Assembly (NCBI GenBank): GCA_003281225.1 | Contig: QCCP01000003.1 | Coordinates: forward strand, 1 to 64,000 | From: Prochlorococcus sp. AG-347-L20 | GTDB lineage: Bacteria; Cyanobacteriota; Cyanobacteriia; PCC-6307; Cyanobiaceae | Length of the DNA: 64,000 bases | Reading direction: 5' to 3' | Shown here: positions 3,412-20,707 of the stretch, one piece after another | Layout of the letters: each line of letters opens with the position of its first letter | How positions within the stretch are numbered: position 1 is the stretch's first letter | Position numbers and translations under genes: made by a program | The notes under the pieces: generated by a model | Database searches by the model: none | The model's input: the letters and a program-made list of their open reading frames with translations, nothing else | Told to the model about the DNA's origin: nothing

Positions 3412-3609
3412 ATGAATATATTTCAAGTTATTGACTCTTACCAATATGAAATGGAGTCAAGATATCAAGAAAAATCAATGCTTACAAATCTTTTTACAGA
3501 GCACAAATTCATAGGATGGTTAGGGTTGTTTATAGTATTTTTCTCTATCTTCGCGATTTTTGTTTTTCAGTTTCTTGAGTGGGAAAGTAATGACAATAAT
3601 AAAAGTTAA
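3412..3609 (+). CDS. small single-span membrane protein
   Basis: 65 residues, not recognised. The N-terminal half is polar and Glu/Gln/Tyr-rich, and a hydrophobic helix covers about residues 34-54 (GWLGLFIVFFSIFAIFVF). A short acidic Asn/Asp tail follows. It begins 41 bases after the thioesterase gene on the same strand, so co-transcription is plausible. Confidence 0.6.
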   Translation: MNIFQVIDSYQYEMESRYQEKSMLTNLFTEHKFIGWLGLFIVFFSIFAIFVFQFLEWESNDNNKS

Positions 3610-3649
3610 TAAGATTTAATGCTTATAATTCAACTGAATGACTTAAAAA

Positions 3650-3901
3650 ATGGCTATCTACTTAAAAATAACTAACCCTACAGAGGTTGTAAAAAAAAAG
3701 ACCTCAAAATGGCTTACAGATATTACACCTGAAAGAATTGATAGAAAATTGGTCGAGGATGAAGTAATAAAAGGCATTATCGAGCAATTAACATTAGAAG
3801 GCATAAAAGGGGAAATATCAGCAATAAATGGGTTTGAAGTAAATGAATCTTCAGTAATAACAAAAAATAATTTTGTTATTAGAAAAACAAAAACTTTTTA
3901 G
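3650..3901 (+). CDS. conserved hypothetical protein, 83 aa
   Basis: A soluble, charged protein with no signal peptide or membrane span. It opens with a TNPTEVVKKKTSKWL block followed by ITPERIDRKLVEDEVIKGI, which reads as two helices, then a short beta-rich C-terminus. The regular composition and good coding character support a real gene. No known family was recognised. It lies 40 bases downstream of the small membrane protein and 20 bases upstream of the Mrr-like gene. Confidence 0.65.
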   Translation: MAIYLKITNPTEVVKKKTSKWLTDITPERIDRKLVEDEVIKGIIEQLTLEGIKGEISAINGFEVNESSVITKNNFVIRKTKTF

Positions 3902-3921
3902 ATCGAAAATAAAAATCTTTA

Positions 3922-4791
3922 ATGAAAATTTATTTTATTTTAATTATTTTTATCATTTTTTTAATTTTTATAATTATACGGGATTATCAAATTAAAAAGA
4001 AAAAGTTTAAATTATATAATGGCTTAAATTCCAATTTATTTATTCAAACAATTAATAATTTAATAGAAGAAAACAAATACAATTTGTTAGAGGAGAGGAT
4101 CAGATTAAGGGAAATAGATGCCTACGGTAACGAGGATTATAAAAAATGGATTGGCAATCCACCTCTTGATGAAAAAGCTATTGAGAAAAATATATTAAAT
4201 GGATCCAAGCGATTTAAAGAGGGTATACCATACTTCTGGGAAAAAGTAATTTTAAAAAAATTTGGAAGTATGGAATTATTTTTCGAAAAATGGAGATCGT
4301 ATTGTAATGAAAATCCTACTATTGATGATGAGATAATTGGATCTATTAGAAAGCTCGAGACTGAAGATTGGTTTGTATTCATAGCGAGTCAAATAGAGAA
4401 ATCATGCTTAAACCTAATAGAAAAAAGCTACTCAAGTAAAAACAAGGAAAACTACAAAAAAGGTATTAGATTTGAAAATCATTGTATGGAAATTCTCAAA
4501 CAAAATGGATGGGAAGTAAAAGTAACCCCTAATACAGGAGATCAAGGGGTTGACTTAATTGCGTCAATCAATGATTTGAGAATATGTATTCAATGCAAAG
4601 ATCATGAAAAAGCTATTGGAAATAAAGCAGTTCAGGAAATTTCAGCTGGTAAATTATTTTGGAAAGGTACTCATGCAATAATAGTTTCAAAATCTGGCTT
4701 TACAAAGTCTGCTCATCAACTAGCAAAATCAAATAAAGTGGAACTAATCAATGAATATCAATTAAAAGATTTAGAGAACTTTATTTTATAA
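3922..4791 (+). CDS. membrane-anchored Mrr-family restriction-endonuclease-like protein
   Basis: 289 residues. Residues 3-19 are a hydrophobic N-terminal anchor. Residues 40-170 are a helical region of no recognised family. The C-terminus (about 181-289) is an Mrr_cat-type PD-(D/E)xK nuclease domain: FENHCMEIL with Glu185, then GDQGVDLIAS with Asp211, then QCK at 224-226. The key catalytic residues D, Q and K are all present. Mrr proteins usually cut methylated DNA or act in DNA maintenance. No modification methylase lies nearby, so a classical restriction-modification pair is unlikely here. Confidence 0.85.
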   Translation: MKIYFILIIFIIFLIFIIIRDYQIKKKKFKLYNGLNSNLFIQTINNLIEENKYNLLEERIRLREIDAYGNEDYKKWIGNPPLDEKAIEKNILNGSKRFKEGIPYFWEKVILKKFGSMELFFEKWRSYCNENPTIDDEIIGSIRKLETEDWFVFIASQIEKSCLNLIEKSYSSKNKENYKKGIRFENHCMEILKQNGWEVKVTPNTGDQGVDLIASINDLRICIQCKDHEKAIGNKAVQEISAGKLFWKGTHAIIVSKSGFTKSAHQLAKSNKVELINEYQLKDLENFIL

Positions 4792-4796
4792 AAAGT

Positions 4797-5201
4797 TTAT
4801 ATCAATTGTGTTAAGCCCTCTTTATAAAGCAAAAGTGTTGCAAAAATTCCTGAGGCCCACATTAAACCTCTAGCTGTTGGGATATTAAATACATATGCAC
4901 CAATATATAAAAAACGAAAAATAGGATGAATCAATGCTGCAATTATTGCAATATTAGAGTCAGTTAAAGTAATCAAACAAAGAAGACATGCTGGCGCATG
5001 TAGGGAAATACTTTCCCAACAATTTTGGTGACACCAAACTGCTCTTTTACCAAAAGAAGGTAATTCATCGAATAAAGCCCTTGGAGCAGACATATTTTCA
5101 ACAGAATATCCTGCTTTAACTCTCCCAATAGTTAATGGAATAATTGATAATAAAACAACTCCAACTGATAGACAAAGGCTCCAGGCAAAAGCTACTTGCA
5201 T
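4797..5201 (-). CDS. MAPEG family membrane protein
   Basis: 134 residues with four hydrophobic segments. The block KRAVWCHQNCWESISLHAPA near residues 52-71 corresponds to the R-A-x-x-x-x-N-x-x-E motif shared by MAPEG proteins (membrane-associated eicosanoid/glutathione metabolism). The C-terminal RFLYIGAYVFNIPTAR matches the family's last conserved loop. Cyanobacterial members are small trimeric membrane proteins, some with glutathione-dependent activity. The substrate is unknown. It is convergent with the Mrr-like gene, with 5 bases between the stop codons. Confidence 0.85.
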   Translation of the reverse strand: MQVAFAWSLCLSVGVVLLSIIPLTIGRVKAGYSVENMSAPRALFDELPSFGKRAVWCHQNCWESISLHAPACLLCLITLTDSNIAIIAALIHPIFRFLYIGAYVFNIPTARGLMWASGIFATLLLYKEGLTQLI

Positions 5202-14526: not shown

Positions 14527-15312
14527 TTATTTACGAAGTTTAGGAATCAAAAGAGATGCGACACAAATAACACTAATTGCAGGTCCAGGCGACAAATTAA
14601 AGACTATAGAGAGAATAAAGCCCAGAAGTGAGATACATAATCCAAAAAATGAAGACCTCATCATTGCAATTCTTAAACTATGAGCCTTATTAAGCCCTAA
14701 CAGTGTTGGGGTAGAAAGAAGAGCAATAACAAGAATTACTCCCACTGCTGACATTGAACTAACAATTACTAATGCCGTTGTAAAACTCAAAGCAAGATTT
14801 AATAAAGAAACGTTTATACCACTCGCGGATGCACCTTCTGGATCTAATCCAACATAAACAACCTTTTCATATCCAAAAGTCATTAAAAGTATAAATACTA
14901 AAAAAGCAATTATTGTTCTAAGTAAATCTCCAAAATTTGCTGTCAATAAATCGCCAAATAATACTGCCTCCAAATCAATCCTTATTCCGAGTAGAGGGAT
15001 AATAAGGACTCCAAACCCAAGCATTCCAGCAAGAATAGTATTCATAACTGCTTCATAATTTTCACTTTTTCTATTGGTTAAACTTTCCGCAATTACCGAG
15101 CCTAAAAGACCACTTATAACACCACCAATTGAAGGGTGAATTCCAAGCGCTAATGCGAGAGCAAGTCCAGGCAACACGCAATGAGAGATTAAATTAACTT
15201 GTAATAATCTCTTATGGGTGATTAATACAGTTCCCATCGCTGGGCATAAGATCCCAGAAAATATAGTTATTATTAATGGAACCAACCACCAGTTGCTATT
15301 AATAAAAGACAT
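14527..15312 (-). CDS. znuB: zinc ABC transporter permease
   Basis: 261 residues with about eight hydrophobic segments, typical of ABC-3 permeases for Zn/Mn. It contains GTVLITHKRLLQVNLISHCVLPGLALALALG and, near the C-terminus, the family's cytoplasmic loop region. It works with ZnuC (ATPase, 15778-16548) and ZnuA (binding protein, 16687-18228) encoded next door. Zur is encoded divergently between permease and ATPase. The cluster context points to zinc. Confidence 0.9.
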   Translation of the reverse strand: MSFINSNWWLVPLIITIFSGILCPAMGTVLITHKRLLQVNLISHCVLPGLALALALGIHPSIGGVISGLLGSVIAESLTNRKSENYEAVMNTILAGMLGFGVLIIPLLGIRIDLEAVLFGDLLTANFGDLLRTIIAFLVFILLMTFGYEKVVYVGLDPEGASASGINVSLLNLALSFTTALVIVSSMSAVGVILVIALLSTPTLLGLNKAHSLRIAMMRSSFFGLCISLLGFILSIVFNLSPGPAISVICVASLLIPKLRK

Positions 15313-15368
15313 TATTCGAAAGATTCGGTATGATCAAAAATACGAAGCAAAAAAAGATTTTGGAAACA

Positions 15369-15764
15369 ATGGTAACTAAGTCTGACATTACCAAAAGACA
15401 AGAACAACTTCTTGAAGAACTTAATAAATGCGAGGATGAATTGAGCGGTCAAGAATTGCATAGGCAGTTGATCACAAAAGGCAAATCTATGGGGTTGACC
15501 ACTGTTTATAGAAATCTGCAAATCTTGATAAAGCATGGATTAATTCGTTCTAGACATCTCCCAACAGGAGAGGTTCTTTACACTCCCGTAGACAGAGATA
15601 TTCATCATTTGACCTGCGTTCAATGCGGAGAGACGTCGAAAATGGAAGGTTGTCCTGTTAAAGATATTCATGCCCCTAAAAAAAATCCAAGAAAGTTTCA
15701 ACTTTTGTTTCATACACTCGAATATTTCGGCCTTTGCCAAAACTGTTATCAAGCTCAAAATTAA
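15369..15764 (+). CDS. zur: Fur-family zinc regulator Zur
   Basis: This protein represses zinc uptake genes when Zn is sufficient. Counting from an alternative ATG at 15330 (144 residues), the winged-helix recognition segment TTVYRNLQIL is near residues 57-66. The DRDIHHLTCVQC regulatory site is at about 88-99, and the structural Zn site uses CVQC (96-99) and CQNC (136-139). The ATG at 15369 (Met14 of that numbering) is preferred because it leaves room for divergent promoters toward znuB and matches the normal family start. Placement inside the znu cluster makes Zur far more likely than Fur or PerR. Confidence 0.85.
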   Translation: MVTKSDITKRQEQLLEELNKCEDELSGQELHRQLITKGKSMGLTTVYRNLQILIKHGLIRSRHLPTGEVLYTPVDRDIHHLTCVQCGETSKMEGCPVKDIHAPKKNPRKFQLLFHTLEYFGLCQNCYQAQN

Positions 15765-15777
15765 TAAGGAACATTTT

Positions 15778-16548
15778 CTAATCACAGAAATTATTTTCCT
15801 TTATAGAGCTTATGTTTATCGCATCTAATTTATCTTTTATTTGATCAGGACTACCAACTGCTAAAACACTTTTATCAAGAACGATTACTTGATCGTAGTT
15901 ATTTAGAGACTCACCCCAATCATGGCTACTTACTAGCAAAGAAAGTCCCGCATCTGCGAGTTGACGAACAATTTTTAGGAAGTCCTCTTTTGCGGGGGGA
16001 TCCAATGCCGCACAAGGTTCATCTAAAAGAAATATTTTTGCAGGGGACATAAGAGTTTTTGCTAATAGAGCTCTTTGTTGCTGTCCTCCTGAAAGAGAAT
16101 CGAGTCTTCTATTAGCTAAATTAGCAATTCCTACTCTTTGCATTGTCGCTTCTAATTCACAACATTTATTAATCCAAGAATTAGGATATTCTAGAAGAGC
16201 CTTGATTTGAAAGGGGTTATTACTTCTTGATTTTGAATACTTTATTTGACCAAGAGATACCAATTTTTCAACTGTAATGGGAAACTTCCAATTCATAGAA
16301 CTTCTTTGAGGCATAAGTGCCACTAGAGCTCTAGATCTATATAAATTTTCACCGTCTATTTTTATTTCGCCTTTATCTGGAGTATTTTGTCCTTGCAATA
16401 TCCTCAAAAGAGTGGATTTACCGGCACCATTTGGACCTACTAGCGCTGTTAGAGTTCCAGGTTTAATCTCAACCGATACCTTATTTAAAGCTGGCTTACT
16501 TTTTTCTGTGTATGCAAATGTTAAATTTTCAGCGACTAAAGTAGCCAT
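15778..16548 (-). CDS. znuC: zinc ABC transporter ATPase
   Basis: 256 residues, an ABC ATPase. Walker A GPNGAGKST is near residues 38-46, the Q-loop region is MPQRSSM, the signature is LSGGQQQR, Walker B is IFLLDEPCAALD, and the His switch is in SSHDWGE. It energises zinc import with ZnuB and ZnuA. It lies divergent from znuA, and the 138-base spacer holds a Zur-box-like palindrome and a second inverted repeat. The znuC stop is 13 bases from the end of zur on the opposite strand. Confidence 0.9.
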   Translation of the reverse strand: MATLVAENLTFAYTEKSKPALNKVSVEIKPGTLTALVGPNGAGKSTLLRILQGQNTPDKGEIKIDGENLYRSRALVALMPQRSSMNWKFPITVEKLVSLGQIKYSKSRSNNPFQIKALLEYPNSWINKCCELEATMQRVGIANLANRRLDSLSGGQQQRALLAKTLMSPAKIFLLDEPCAALDPPAKEDFLKIVRQLADAGLSLLVSSHDWGESLNNYDQVIVLDKSVLAVGSPDQIKDKLDAINISSIKENNFCD

Positions 16549-16588
16549 TAATTAATCTTCATGAAAAAAGTCACTTTACAAGCTTACC

Positions 16589-16611
16589 AATAATACAAGC
16601 TGCGTATTATT
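16589..16611. promoter_or_regulatory. inverted repeat AATAATAC-N7-GTATTATT between znuC and znuA
   Basis: Two perfect 8-base arms separated by 7 bases, 41-63 bases upstream of znuC. The arms differ from the Zur-box-like site closer to znuA. This could be a second operator for the minus-strand transcript, or part of its promoter. Confidence 0.35.
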
Positions 16612-16649
16612 TTCATAACATTTGATACCTTTTCTTGTCAGGTGCAATG

Positions 16650-16666
16650 AAAATGATTATCATTTT
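16650..16666. promoter_or_regulatory. Zur-box-like palindrome upstream of znuA
   Basis: AAAATGAT, central T, ATCATTTT: a perfect 17-base palindrome with ATGATNATCAT in the centre, the pattern of Fur-family operators. It lies 20 bases before the znuA start and in the spacer shared with znuC. With zur itself in the cluster, it is the obvious Zur target. Confidence 0.6.
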
Positions 16667-16686
16667 TAAGTATTTAATAATTATTT

Positions 16687-18228
16687 ATGTCAATTTTTAA
16701 AAGACTTTTATCAAATAAAACATGTTCAAGTAAGTCAATTATTAAAAATTCCGTAATCGCTGGAACGATTATATTTTCTGGTTTTGGGCAGGATGTAATG
16801 GCTAAAGGGAAGTCATACGTAGCAGTAGAACCACTAGTATGTGATTTAGTTAAATCAATTGCGTTGCCATCTGACGAAGTTACATGCTTAGTAGATAGAA
16901 AACAGGATGTTCATGACTTAAAGATCAATCCAAGACAAGCTCAATTACTAAATAGCGCAGACAAAGTATTCACTCTTGGCAAAGAAATGACTCCAAGTAT
17001 GAGAAATTGGGAAAGTAAAAAAAATACTGTTGTTGTAGGTGTTAGTGCAATAGACGTAGATGATCATTCTGATCATGAAGGTCACGATGACCACTCAGAC
17101 AATGACGGACATGACGATCATGCCGAACATTCAGCTAAGGTAGATGATCATTCTGATCATGGAGGTCATGATGATCATTCAGACCATGGTGGACATGATG
17201 ATCATGCTGAGGGTGCTTTCGAATGGGCAGGTAAATTCCAGCTTTCTAAGGGTTCATACAAATGGTCATTTGAAAAAGTCGATGGCGAATATGCAGATCC
17301 TGCAATGAAGATGGTGATTCTCAAATCTAATGACATAGAAGGGTCTGAAGATTTAGCCAAAGAATTATTAGGATCTAAAGACTCAATAAGCAGAAAAAAT
17401 GATGGAACTTTGATAGCAAGCAATAAAGCTTTTGTTCTTAACTTCGATCAAAGAAAAGAAAGTACTGTTTTTAACGTGGATATCAAAGAAGATGGTGAAT
17501 ATATATTTTTTACTGAACACATGCCTTTTGAGTTTGAAGCAACTCAACACTTTTTTAAAGACGTTTCAAATAGTGATGTAGAACCAATAGCACAAGTTCC
17601 AGACGAAGGAGAGGGGCATCATCATCATGACCATGGAGGTCTAGATCCACATGTATGGCATGATCCACATAACATCATAAAAATGGGAGATCTTATAAGC
17701 AAAAGTTTAAAGAAAGATATTTCAGTTTTTAATAGAGGTGACAGAAAACTAATTAATGAAAGATTCGAAAAAGCTGATTCTCTCTTAGAAGGCTTAGATA
17801 GTTGGATCGTCGAACAAGTAAGCTCTATTCCTGAGGAAAACAGAGTAATTGTCTCTAAACACAAAGCAATGGAATACTACGGGGATGCATTTGGTTTTGA
17901 AACCATTAGTTTACTTGACTTTCTTGGAGACTCCTCAAGCTTAAGGCCAGACAACATAAGTTCTACTTTAAAAATGTTAGATGAAGAGAAAGTTCAGGCA
18001 ATATTTCCTGAACAAATTCCAGCATCTAAGTTATTAAGGAACTTAAGTAGACAAAGTTCAGTTCCTTTAGCTTCTAATCAAATATTCGTTGATGGATTGA
18101 TGATGGATGGTAATACGGTTTCAGTAGCCGTACACAACACTTGTACAATTGTTGATTCATTAGGTGGAAGCTGTGATAAAGAATCTGGCTCCAATCTTGA
18201 GTCTGAATGGTACAAACTTTCAGATTAA
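16687..18228 (+). CDS. znuA: zinc-binding lipoprotein-type component ZnuA with inserted domain
   Basis: 513 residues, much longer than usual ZnuA (about 300). An N-terminal signal region (1-40) precedes the first cluster-A9 half. VHDLKINP includes His76; later HVWHDPHN, SKHKAMEYYGD and the C-terminal half give the remaining Zn ligands. Two extras are inserted. One is a His/Asp-rich run of DDHSDH-type repeats (residues 125-174); the other is a domain of about 110 residues (178-290, FEWAGKFQLSKGSYKWSF to TEHMPFEFEA) that also occurs in the COG0523 protein downstream. It captures Zn in the periplasm for ZnuBC. A Zur-like box precedes it. Confidence 0.9.
   Translation: MSIFKRLLSNKTCSSKSIIKNSVIAGTIIFSGFGQDVMAKGKSYVAVEPLVCDLVKSIALPSDEVTCLVDRKQDVHDLKINPRQAQLLNSADKVFTLGKEMTPSMRNWESKKNTVVVGVSAIDVDDHSDHEGHDDHSDNDGHDDHAEHSAKVDDHSDHGGHDDHSDHGGHDDHAEGAFEWAGKFQLSKGSYKWSFEKVDGEYADPAMKMVILKSNDIEGSEDLAKELLGSKDSISRKNDGTLIASNKAFVLNFDQRKESTVFNVDIKEDGEYIFFTEHMPFEFEATQHFFKDVSNSDVEPIAQVPDEGEGHHHHDHGGLDPHVWHDPHNIIKMGDLISKSLKKDISVFNRGDRKLINERFEKADSLLEGLDSWIVEQVSSIPEENRVIVSKHKAMEYYGDAFGFETISLLDFLGDSSSLRPDNISSTLKMLDEEKVQAIFPEQIPASKLLRNLSRQSSVPLASNQIFVDGLMMDGNTVSVAVHNTCTIVDSLGGSCDKESGSNLESEWYKLSD
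17059..17210 (+). repeat. tandem His/Asp-rich coding repeat inside znuA
   Basis: Degenerate units based on GATCATTCTGATCATGG-type DNA encode DDHSDH(E/G)GH / DDHAE blocks, five or six times. Such loops in cluster A9 proteins are thought to bind or relay zinc. The repeat may vary in copy number between strains. Confidence 0.75.
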
Positions 18229-18305
18229 ATTTTTCTAATAAAAACGGTTTTCATTTCTTATGATTACTATTATTAAACTATTGTTTATTTGGTAAAAATC
18301 ATTAA

Positions 18306-19661
18306 ATGAGCATCAAAGATAAAGTTCCAGTTACTATTCTCACTGGATTTCTAGGTTCAGGGAAAACTACTTTACTTAATAGAATACTAAGTGAAGAGCA
18401 CGGAAAAAGAATAGCCGTAATTGAGAATGAATACGGTGAAGTAGGGATAGATCAAGGGCTCGTAATAAATGCCGATGAAGAAGTGTTTGAGATGTCAAAC
18501 GGGTGCATTTGTTGTACTGTTCGCGGTGATTTAATAAGAGTCCTTGGCAACCTTATGAAAAGAAGAGATAAGTTTGACTATGTTTTAGTAGAAACGACCG
18601 GATTAGCAGATCCTGGGCCAGTCGCACAGACATTTTTCATGGATGAAGAAATTAGTTCTGAATTTACTCTTGATGGAATTGTAACTTTAGTTGATGCTGC
18701 TCATATTGATCAGCAGCTAGGAAGAAGTGATGAAAGTTCAGAACAAGTTGCGTTTGCAGATGTTCTTGTCCTTAATAAAACTGATTTAGTCTCTGATGAT
18801 GCACTAGATACTCTTGAATCGAGATTGAGAGATATGAACCGAATGACTCGAATCATTAGAGCCGAGAATGCCCAAGTACCAATCGAAACAGTCCTAAATC
18901 TAAGTGCATTTGATCTCGATCAAATCCTTAAACGCAGACCAACATTTCTTGAACCAGAATATCCTTTTGAATGGACAGGTGTTTACGACCTTGCTGCAGG
19001 TAAATATGAATTAATGCTAGAAGAAGGTCCCGATCCAGAAATGTCATTAGTAGCTTTCGCTAATCAAGGTGAGAGTGAAGAAGAACTTAAAGATGGTGCT
19101 GAATCCTGCGTAAGACTTTATGCAGAAAAAGCTAAAAGCATAGAACCTGGGAATATCATTCCATTTGGAGAACATATAAACCTTAAATTGGAGGATAAAG
19201 GAAATAAATCATTCATATTAGATATCGAAAAAGGATCAAAGATAGGTTTATATACACAGCACACTGCTGAAGAATTCAATATGAAAATCATTAAAAGTGA
19301 AGACAATAATTCAAAAGAGATCCCATTTAATATTGAAAGATTCTGGCAAGCCGAGCACGAGCACGATGATGAAGTAACGTCCATTGCAATTGAACGATTT
19401 GGAGATGTTGATCCAGAAAAACTTAATACTTGGTTGGGCAGACTTCTTTCTGAAAAAGGGGTGGATATATTTAGAACTAAAGGTTTCATTAGCTACTCAG
19501 GCAACCCACAGAGAATAGTTTTCCAAGGGGTACATATGTTATTTACAGCGCAACCTGATAAGGAATGGGGTAACGAACCTCGTAGAAACCAACTTGTTTT
19601 TATAGGTAGAAATTTGGACGAGAAAGAGATGAAAGAAGGTTTTGAAAAATGCCTGATATAG
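18306..19661 (+). CDS. COG0523 (CobW/ZNG-type) G3E GTPase, zinc-linked
   Basis: 451 residues, a metallochaperone-type GTPase. Walker A GFLGSGKTT is at 14-22, the ENEYGEVGID switch at 40-49, the metal-binding CICC motif at 67-70, and NKTD at 157-160. Residues 221-330 form an extra domain shared with ZnuA (FEWTGVYDLAAGKYEL... to TQHTAEEF). An acidic/His stretch HEHDDE is at 351-356. The usual CobW C-terminal domain follows and is intact. In the zur/znu context it is likely a zinc chaperone for low-zinc conditions rather than a cobalamin-biosynthesis CobW. Confidence 0.9.
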   Translation: MSIKDKVPVTILTGFLGSGKTTLLNRILSEEHGKRIAVIENEYGEVGIDQGLVINADEEVFEMSNGCICCTVRGDLIRVLGNLMKRRDKFDYVLVETTGLADPGPVAQTFFMDEEISSEFTLDGIVTLVDAAHIDQQLGRSDESSEQVAFADVLVLNKTDLVSDDALDTLESRLRDMNRMTRIIRAENAQVPIETVLNLSAFDLDQILKRRPTFLEPEYPFEWTGVYDLAAGKYELMLEEGPDPEMSLVAFANQGESEEELKDGAESCVRLYAEKAKSIEPGNIIPFGEHINLKLEDKGNKSFILDIEKGSKIGLYTQHTAEEFNMKIIKSEDNNSKEIPFNIERFWQAEHEHDDEVTSIAIERFGDVDPEKLNTWLGRLLSEKGVDIFRTKGFISYSGNPQRIVFQGVHMLFTAQPDKEWGNEPRRNQLVFIGRNLDEKEMKEGFEKCLI

Positions 19662-20707
19662 AATCATTTAGCCCAAGAGGCATGTTCCACGAGGGATGGA
19701 CAGCTGAAGTTAATGATTATGCCATAGTTTGTGGTTGGGCTACTAAAGGAAAGTTATTCATTGTTGGGGATGTAGCAGGAGGTATTTTTGCCTTTGAAGG
19801 AGATACTGGGAAAATTATTTGGAAAAAAGAAAATACACACTCTGCTGGTCTATTAGCAATGTCCATTCATCCAGAAGGAGAGATTTTCGCAACTTCCGGT
19901 CAAGATGGAAATATTCAAATATATAATTGTCACGAAGGTAAAGTAATTAAAACTCTCGATCTTGGCAAGGCTTGGGTAGAACATCTTAAGTGGTCAAATG
20001 ATGGCTTATTTCTTGCAGCAGCTTCTTCAAAAAAAGTATATGTTTTTAATGAAATTGGTGAAGAAAAATGGGTATCAGATGATCATCCAAGCACAGTGAG
20101 TGCAATAAAATGGTCAAATAATAATGAGCTAGCTACAGCCTGCTACGGGAGAGTAACATTCTTTGACATAGTAAATAATAAAACGAATCAAAAGCTCGAG
20201 TGGCAAGGATCATTAGTCTCAATGGAATTAAGTCCTGATGGTGATATAGTCGCTTGCGGGAGTCAAGACAATTCAGTTCATTTTTGGAGAAGATCAACCG
20301 GAATGGATGCTGAAATGACAGGATACCCAGGAAAACCTAGTCACCTTTCTTTTGACGATAGTGGAAAATTACTGGCAACTAGTGGCAGTGAAAGAATTAC
20401 AGTGTGGAGCTTTATAGGTGACGGTCCCGAGGGAACTATGCCGGGAGAGCTATGGCACCATACCGAACCTATTTCTAGCCTAGCCTTTTCAAATAAAGGC
20501 ATGCTTGTAGCTTCCGGATCTAGAGATGGTTCTGTTGTCGCAAGTTTTCTAAAAAAAGACGGTAATGGTGACCCAGTTGGGGCTGCATTCGCAGGCGATT
20601 TAGTGGGTGCACTTTCGTGGAGACCTGATGATTGTGCACTAGCTGCAGTTAACGCAAAAGGTGTAGTAAATGTTTGGAAATTTAAAGTTCGTACTAATTC
20701 TTTTTGA
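19649..20707 (+). CDS. WD40-repeat protein, zinc-cluster associated
   Basis: 352 residues made of about seven WD40-like blades (for example MSIHPEGEIFATSGQDGNIQIYN, MELSPDGDIVACGSQDNSVHFWR, LAFSNKGMLVASGSRDGSVVASF). It has no signal peptide and is cytoplasmic. It overlaps the end of the COG0523 gene by 13 bases, so the two are translationally coupled. A soluble beta-propeller coupled to a metal chaperone may be a client or scaffold; direct zinc binding is not shown. Confidence 0.85.
   Translation: MPDIESFSPRGMFHEGWTAEVNDYAIVCGWATKGKLFIVGDVAGGIFAFEGDTGKIIWKKENTHSAGLLAMSIHPEGEIFATSGQDGNIQIYNCHEGKVIKTLDLGKAWVEHLKWSNDGLFLAAASSKKVYVFNEIGEEKWVSDDHPSTVSAIKWSNNNELATACYGRVTFFDIVNNKTNQKLEWQGSLVSMELSPDGDIVACGSQDNSVHFWRRSTGMDAEMTGYPGKPSHLSFDDSGKLLATSGSERITVWSFIGDGPEGTMPGELWHHTEPISSLAFSNKGMLVASGSRDGSVVASFLKKDGNGDPVGAAFAGDLVGALSWRPDDCALAAVNAKGVVNVWKFKVRTNSF

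Follow-up and report, generated by a model that had tools for sequence, protein, structure and literature searches.

A predicted β-sandwich module common to a ZnuA-type zinc-binding protein and a COG0523 GTPase of Prochlorococcus, with a probable role in metal handling

A stretch of 64,000 nucleotides from Prochlorococcus sp. AG-347-L20 (contig QCCP01000003.1, positions 1 to 64,000 of the forward strand; hereafter, the window) encodes side by side a ZnuA-type zinc-binding protein and a COG0523/CobW GTPase, and both proteins, the first located outside the cell membrane and the second inside it, carry a homologous domain of ~115 residues. We propose that this module is a mobile, jelly-roll-like β-sandwich which most likely binds a transition metal, zinc in this case, with an invariant Glu/Asp/His/Glu set at one end, and that it plays a part in metal hand-over by ZnuA and by the GTPase; we give this reading a probability of roughly 60%. 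In ZnuA-type proteins, the module sits within a histidine-rich loop, and in COG0523 GTPases it occupies the linker of the two CobW domains. The elements concerned are:

16687-18228, + strand: gene of the ZnuA-type zinc-binding protein, an open reading frame (ORF) of 513 amino acids (aa), with the module inside the histidine-rich loop
17059-17217, + strand: linker rich in histidine and aspartate, N-terminal to the ZnuA module (residues 125-177)
17203-17574, + strand: module of ZnuA, residues 173-296 as modelled (conserved core 178-290, nucleotides 17218-17556; predicted local distance difference test score, pLDDT, 83.5)
17221-17532, + strand: invariant residues of the ZnuA module, Glu179 (17221-17223), Asp204 (17296-17298), His278 (17518-17520) and Glu282 (17530-17532); also Trp180, Gly182 and Phe283
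17608-17640, + strand: another histidine-rich stretch, GEGHHHHDHGG (residues 308-318), lying C-terminal to the module and ahead of LDPHVW
18306-19661, + strand: COG0523/CobW GTPase gene, ORF of 451 aa with Pfam cobW and CobW_C
18951-19307, + strand: module of the GTPase, residues 216-334 as modelled (core 221-330; pLDDT 91.6)
18969-19274, + strand: invariant residues of the GTPase module, Glu222 (18969-18971), Asp243 (19032-19034), His319 (19260-19262) and Glu323 (19272-19274); also Trp223, Gly225 and Phe324

The 513-aa protein belongs to the ZnuA family, as it matches Pfam ZnuA (PF01297) in two stretches with 140.1 bits against a cut-off of 29. The GTPase matches cobW at residues 8-184 (207 bits) and CobW_C at residues 358-450 (87.9 bits) and carries the CxCC motif as GCICC, which places it in the COG0523/CobW family. 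When it is aligned with YjiA of E. coli, its CobW domains stop and start at YjiA residues 214 and 221, with the module lying exactly in between; at this place the linker of YjiA consists of residues 214-221 alone.

A first-pass annotation of the window had noticed by eye that ZnuA residues ~178-290 and GTPase residues ~221-330 resemble each other. Segment alignment, profiles and separately aligned structure models all identify these regions as one homologous domain, and the motifs common to both are all present (FEWAG/FEWTG, QLSKGSY/DLAAGKY, DPAM/DPEM and TEHMPFEF/TQHTAEEF). Segment against segment, the local score is 78, compared with a mean of 30.3 (standard deviation 5.3) and a best of 56 in 2000 shuffles, and the best alignment of the whole proteins lands on the same two segments (score 89; best of 500 shuffles, 68). 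Profile against profile, the picocyanobacterial rows (9 ZnuA, 8 GTPase) gave an expectation value (E) of 1.1e-10 and a probability of 97%, and the comparison of 12 ZnuA-only with 61 GTPase-only rows gave E 2.1e-31 and 99.9%. In the column-shuffle control, the real score of 160 compares with a maximum of 20.6 for 100 one-side shuffles and with 12.4 for the reversed profile. Used as query in its own genome at E ≤ 10, the ZnuA module finds itself and the GTPase copy alone (E 0.017). The two copies of the window share 26% identity; a desulfobacterial ZnuA module (L116; L numbers are our own handles) is intermediate, being 40% identical to the best GTPase module and 42-48% to the best ZnuA-type modules. 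At the level of sequence, the modules of ZnuA and GTPase are homologous.

The AlphaFold2 models of the two modules, each computed from an alignment independent of the other set, have a pLDDT of 83.5 and a predicted template modelling score (pTM) of 0.78 for ZnuA, and 91.6 and 0.83 for the GTPase. Judged by strand order, the predicted structures match, with the main strands and helices in the same order. Strands occupy positions 8-14/7-14, 17-24/17-23 and 34-41/30-36 of the ZnuA/GTPase models and are followed by a helix (45-57/43-57), by strands 61-64/62-64, 76-80/75-79, 87-94/86-92 and 98-104/96-102, and by a short helix (109-112/106-109). A short strand 69-71 is listed for ZnuA alone and a final strand 112-115 for the GTPase alone. 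Among solved structures, GOLD chains of SEC14-like proteins (1olm, 1o6u, 4uyb, 4tlg) head both second-look structure lists, where rows within 1 Z are ties: their Z scores are 5.6-5.8 for the top four of the GTPase model (best Z 5.8, root-mean-square deviation (rmsd) 3.6 over 92 residues) and 4.1-4.3 for the ZnuA model (best Z 4.3, rmsd 3.7 over 88 residues). CBM35 chains reach Z 4.2-4.4 with the GTPase model (Z 4.4 with rmsd 3.9 over 80 residues). According to the comparison tool, a Z below 8 possibly reflects just a common arrangement, and the values obtained with these models are too low for naming a fold family; absence from the VIA structure lists excludes no family. Foldseek gave no match at E ≤ 0.001 to solved structures with either module model, nor did the GTPase model match the viral structure library at this threshold, and the module profiles found chance-level matches at most among the sequences of solved structures. 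No solved structure matches the module confidently.

The residues conserved in both modules point to a possible function. In 82 aligned modules (GTPase numbering), Glu222, His319, Glu323 and Phe324 are present in 82/82, and Trp223, Gly225 and Asp243 in 81/82; near-copies, two unassigned rows and the motif-less verrucomicrobial GTPases L217-L234 and L248 were excluded from this alignment. Since part of the set came from motif patterns, we recounted the 44 rows found by other means: Glu, Asp, His, Glu and Phe are kept in all 44, Trp and Gly in 43. According to the models, the start of strand 1 (Glu222), the β2-β3 loop (Asp243) and the end of the last strand (His319, Glu323) would lie near one end of the sandwich. 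In 18 verrucomicrobial GTPases (L217-L234), TxHxxxEF and GPDxM are absent, and the 60-residue stretch around the β2-β3 loop carries 5-23 histidines, at least 9 in 17 of the 18 (L215, which has no recognised start, was left uncounted); the eight GTPases of the same table that bear both motifs have 0-2 histidines there. The simplest reading would be a metal site at this end of the sandwich that one clade has rebuilt, in the same position, as a histidine loop.

A search for further zinc or metal proteins with the module, which the first-pass annotation had proposed, found it in GTPases of many phyla, in ZnuA-type proteins of Bacteria and haloarchaea and in small secreted proteins of haloarchaea. 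Distinct copies number 166, with 108 in GTPases, 52 in ZnuA-type proteins, three in small secreted proteins, one in a membrane protein and two unassigned, host classes having been set by simple motif rules and near-copies included. A pattern scan of species genomes returned at least 594 stretches, of which 556 were confirmed; among the best 80 of these, the host is a GTPase in 79, from Poribacteria, Acidobacteriota, Chloroflexota, Pseudomonadota, Actinomycetota, Spirochaetota, Myxococcota, Bacteroidota and others. In an Acidobacteriales assembly (L083:5302-7257), the GTPase appears fused to WD40; its P-loop is altered, its CobW_C is shortened, and the fusion is probably an artefact of assembly. 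Within the cyanobacterial family (201 genomes searched), the ZnuA module occurs in genomes of Prochlorococcus size, and the range of the GTPase module extends to some genomes that lack the ZnuA one. Apart from Prochlorococcus, ZnuA-type carriers were found in Verrucomicrobia (L105), Desulfobacterota (L116; L196 of the same class), SAR324 (L144; L209, L211 and L213 of the same phylum), the class of the gammaproteobacterial L085 (L245, L246) and on haloarchaeal plasmids (L157, L162, L164, L165). Pfam ZnuA was confirmed in all six carriers tested (L245, L211, L105, L116, L157, L144). On three further haloarchaeal plasmids (L159, L160, L163), a small protein consists of little else than the module; its tails are rich in histidine, and it has what looks by eye like a lipoprotein signal. 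On an Alicyclobacillus plasmid (L158), it lies in a putative membrane protein of unsure family (Pfam Mntp 17.0 bits in one part, cut-off 24.4). At least four histidines stand on at least one flank in 57/58 ZnuA-type, 3/3 small secreted and 1/1 membrane-protein copies. No confirmed relative pointing to a phage or viral origin was found in two viral-contig scans or in phage records.

Among the haloarchaeal copies, the stand-alone module protein L160:4839-5423 is encoded immediately after a urease operon, a hint that its metal may be nickel. The module-bearing metal-binding proteins of L164 and L165 (about 3470-5059) are preceded by two GTP-binding proteins and a cobalamin-related gene, a setting that hints at cobalt.

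A module tree was built from 68 modules reduced at 80% identity (119 columns, two unassigned excluded). It is split, with support 99/95, into an extracytoplasmic side (11 ZnuA-type and three small secreted proteins) and a side comprising 53 GTPases and the membrane protein; many other forks stay open because the alignment has 119 columns only. Given these two lineages, the two copies of the window are old relatives and not the result of a recent duplication. The GTPase modules of L126 (Dehalococcoidia) and of L199, L203 and L204 (phylum of L095, Chloroflexota) group with the picocyanobacterial ones (support 96/97), which suggests either exchange of whole GTPase genes between some Chloroflexota and picocyanobacteria or mis-binned contigs.

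Comparison of the modules with the proteins that carry them revealed a cassette-like behaviour. Among 15 chosen ZnuA-type proteins (first module taken where there are two), 13 pairs share a backbone, defined by our own cut as a C-lobe at least 40% identical, and in these, divergence is about equal in module and C-lobe (mean difference -1.8 points). For the remaining 92 pairs, module identity exceeds C-lobe identity by 21 points on average, and modules are at least 50% identical in 37/92. The extreme pair, a Prochlorococcus-family and a gammaproteobacterial protein, shares 74% identity in the module and only 21% in the C-lobe and 24% in the N-lobe. Conversely, two SAR324 proteins and a Desulfobacteraceae protein have backbones 55% alike and modules just 37-38% identical. 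Since the mismatch runs both ways, the module moves independently of its host protein, as a cassette exchanged between unrelated ZnuA backbones. Tandem module pairs, 76-89% identical, occur in three genomes (L010, L144, L209) and fit this picture. A 27-bp tandem repeat lies at 17143-17210, within the linker DNA of znuA, and such repetitive linker codons could serve as recombination sites. The ZnuA of L038, encoded beside a module-bearing GTPase, has a plain histidine loop without the module. The 873-aa ZnuA frame of L043 (G078), whose nearly identical halves flank a run of N, is probably a scaffolding duplicate and was not counted as a duplication.

The setting of the two genes in the window is that of a zinc locus:

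14527-15312, - strand: znuB, transporter permease (ORF; named from sequence, without a family-library scan)
15330-15764, + strand: Fur-family regulator, probably Zur (NCBIfam Fur-family matches, every one under its cut-off)
15778-16548, - strand: znuC, transporter ATPase (ORF; named in the same way as znuB)
16650-16666, no strand assigned: perfect 8-1-8 palindrome AAAATGATTATCATTTT between znuC and znuA, a probable Zur box
19649-20707, + strand: WD40 β-propeller gene (Pfam WD40, 98 bits), overlapping the 3' end of the GTPase gene

The 15-bp core of AAAATGATTATCATTTT has a single exact match in the genome, and TGATnATCA is kept at -32 to -34 in all nine other loci of the same genus; outside this genus, many ZnuA-module loci lack an exact TGATnATCA. 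With up to two mismatches the palindrome is not enriched in the genome (75 occurrences versus 72 for the reversed control), so that only the exact 15-bp core is unique, and a simple Zur pattern (TGAnAAnnnnTTnTCA, two mismatches) is not enriched in the window (137 versus 131.6 expected). In Synechococcus WH8102, Zur represses synw0968-synw0973, that is, znuBCA and uncharacterised genes, according to the available part of the report (PMC9337993). Prokaryotic COG0523 subfamily 5, as described in the accessible text of Haas et al. 2009 (PMC2770081), clusters with WD40, znuABC and creatinase genes, and several of its members lie behind predicted Zur sites. The genes at 14527-20707 show the same neighbourhood (WD40 and znuABC), and by this neighbourhood the GTPase is a candidate member of subfamily 5. 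Zinc is the likely metal here.

Co-occurrence was counted in six surveys (292 + 192 + 151 + 52 + 194 + 274 = 1155 genomes), one of which, that of 292 genomes, used E ≤ 0.01 and a narrower profile, with one weak match (0.002) uncounted. Both modules are present in 19 genomes, the ZnuA module only in five, the GTPase module only in 44, and neither in 1087. Without Cyanobacteriota and the five centre genomes, which had been chosen as positives, the numbers in the same order are 2, 4, 34 and 818 (one-sided Fisher p 0.02), and the SAR324 phylum with its centre removed gives 2, 1, 3 and 45 (p 0.02). As the genomes are related, these p values serve as a guide only. The association of the two modules is loose: either protein may bear the module independently of the other.

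These data bear on an earlier suggestion that the module recognises the same partner or the same metal on both sides of the membrane. The metal half fits better: both hosts handle metal, the Glu/Asp/His/Glu set is invariant and histidine loops replace the motifs in one clade, all of which would agree with metal binding. The partner half is weakened, as the ZnuA module is missing in 44 of the 63 genomes with a GTPase module, and the two separate lineages do not form a recent matched pair. It is nonetheless worth considering docking to other proteins, for instance the WD40 protein inside and a transporter or chaperone outside, with the invariant residues as the interface. Jelly-roll and GOLD-like folds are often protein-binding, and a WD40 gene lies directly downstream of the module-GTPase in 59 of the 79 GTPase loci of the best-80 set, with a WD40 homologue anywhere in the locus in 68. 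However, no such homologue was found at E 1e-20 in 11/79 loci (three of which are truncated short of 900 nucleotides), and the partners inside and outside would have to differ, yet the four polar residues are invariant in both modules. Furthermore, ZnuA modules occur in backbones 20-30% identical, so the rest of ZnuA is hardly the partner. We consider docking unlikely.

To the same low degree, we credit a ligand-free spacer or oligomerisation domain. It would suit the optional nature of the module, as in L038, whose ZnuA manages with a plain histidine loop, but it hardly explains four polar invariant residues at strand ends and loops; the tandem duplications (L010, L144, L209) and the histidine loops replacing the motifs also suggest a ligand function. 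A carbohydrate- or lipid-binding β-sandwich of CBM35 or GOLD type is improbable. The structural resemblances given above (Z 4.2-4.4 to CBM35 and 5.3-5.8 to GOLD chains for the GTPase model) and Pfam CBM_35 matches at E 0.1 or worse in 2/11 rows speak for it, but all Z scores are below 8, no Pfam match is significant, and a cytoplasmic GTPase has no obvious carbohydrate target. Chance or convergence, which could appeal only to the 26% identity of the window's copies, has practically no standing left after the shuffle and column-shuffle controls and the intermediate L116, and is refuted at the profile level.

Several observations weigh against a metal-binding module. Structural matches are weak (all Z < 6), and the top Foldseek rows differ between the models, with TNF/C1q-like and CBM35 structures for the GTPase and influenza haemagglutinins for ZnuA. 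The proposed clustering of the invariant residues derives from the predicted strand order. The motif-less verrucomicrobial rows lie outside the 44-row count, and the replacement by a histidine loop is confined to one phylum and may be a single event; among these 18 rows, the first Glu is kept in 17, the His at the TxH place in five and the last Glu in one (the latter two read by eye). Because the residues are partly kept, the site would be remodelled rather than wholly lost. GTPase copies are seldom flanked by histidines (at least four on a side in 5% of 115). Finally, the metal of the haloarchaeal copies may be cobalt or nickel, as their neighbours are cobalamin or urease genes.

If the module does bind metal, the copy spliced into the flexible histidine-rich loop of ZnuA would give the protein an additional, folded store from which zinc moves on to the transport site, and the GTPase copy, lying between GTPase domain and CobW_C, would retain or relay zinc while GTP drives its hand-over in the cytoplasm. 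Beyond the window, we see slightly better than even odds that it represents an undescribed, horizontally mobile metal-holding cassette, built once and present in at least two, perhaps four, metal-traffic families on both membrane sides in Bacteria and Archaea, inserted into, and exchanged between, the histidine-rich loops of unrelated ZnuA proteins, with its site remodelled into a histidine loop in one clade. The role of COG0523 GTPases and of the ZnuA histidine loop in zinc supply is still unsettled, and a domain common to both offers a shared handle, as one set of four residues is open to mutation in a protein of either compartment, periplasm or cytoplasm. If this is true, trading such a cassette may be how bacteria of the open ocean improve the transporters they already have, and annotations could be given to many stretches and small secreted proteins that have none so far.

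The first-pass annotation knew of no named domain here; indeed, no Pfam or NCBIfam model attains its cut-off on the module, and the two window segments alone have no Pfam match at E ≤ 1. The best NCBIfam match of 30 modules, NF005913 ('hypothetical protein') on L160, has E 3e-4 and 19.4 bits against a cut-off of 382 (L157, 13 bits), and was treated as chance. Among the open-access papers listed, no title or abstract describing the module was found, subscription papers and other domain databases lying outside this search. Neither ZinT nor DUF2796/ZrgA is among the Pfam and NCBIfam matches of the 30 modules. The full-length ZnuA matches ZrgA with 28.8 bits (cut-off 185) at residues 86-179, its histidine-rich part and not the module.

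Two candidates were set aside. ZrgA/DUF2796, considered as a relative for a remembered SPAM-like stretch, gains no support from the family scans, and PA4063 has a different fold as far as the excerpt (PMC8561739) describes it. ZepA of Anabaena, a zinc exoprotein with a β-sandwich domain, is set apart by its PEP-CTERM and H-X2-9-H-F/Y-H motif, which do not fit, in the description available (PMC10957091).

Among known systems, the GOLD domain of SEC14-like proteins, which are eukaryotic membrane-traffic proteins, has a similar jelly-roll-like arrangement, and its four chains top both lists within ties, but the Z scores are just 5.6-5.8 and 4.1-4.3 and no sequence match exists. AdcA of streptococci is a ZnuA-type binding protein fused to a C-terminal calycin-type ZinT domain. 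It thus resembles the window's ZnuA as a zinc-binding protein of this family with an extra folded domain, whereas the present module is inserted in the histidine loop and is also found in a cytoplasmic GTPase. COG0523 subfamily 5 shares with the window the clustering with WD40 and znuABC and the predicted Zur sites, but its description, in the accessible portion of that paper (PMC2770081), does not mention an inserted domain. ZrgA and PA4063 are likewise periplasmic zinc-deficiency proteins with histidine-rich loops, but PA4063 is described in the excerpt (PMC8561739) as having a ferredoxin-like fold, and the module did not match that family in the scans. In AztD/AztC, as far as the available text (PMC6689063) describes it, an accessory zinc holder hands zinc to a binding protein whose flexible loop is placed in the docked model; in that pair the accessory part, AztD, is a protein of its own, whereas in the window's ZnuA it forms part of the loop.

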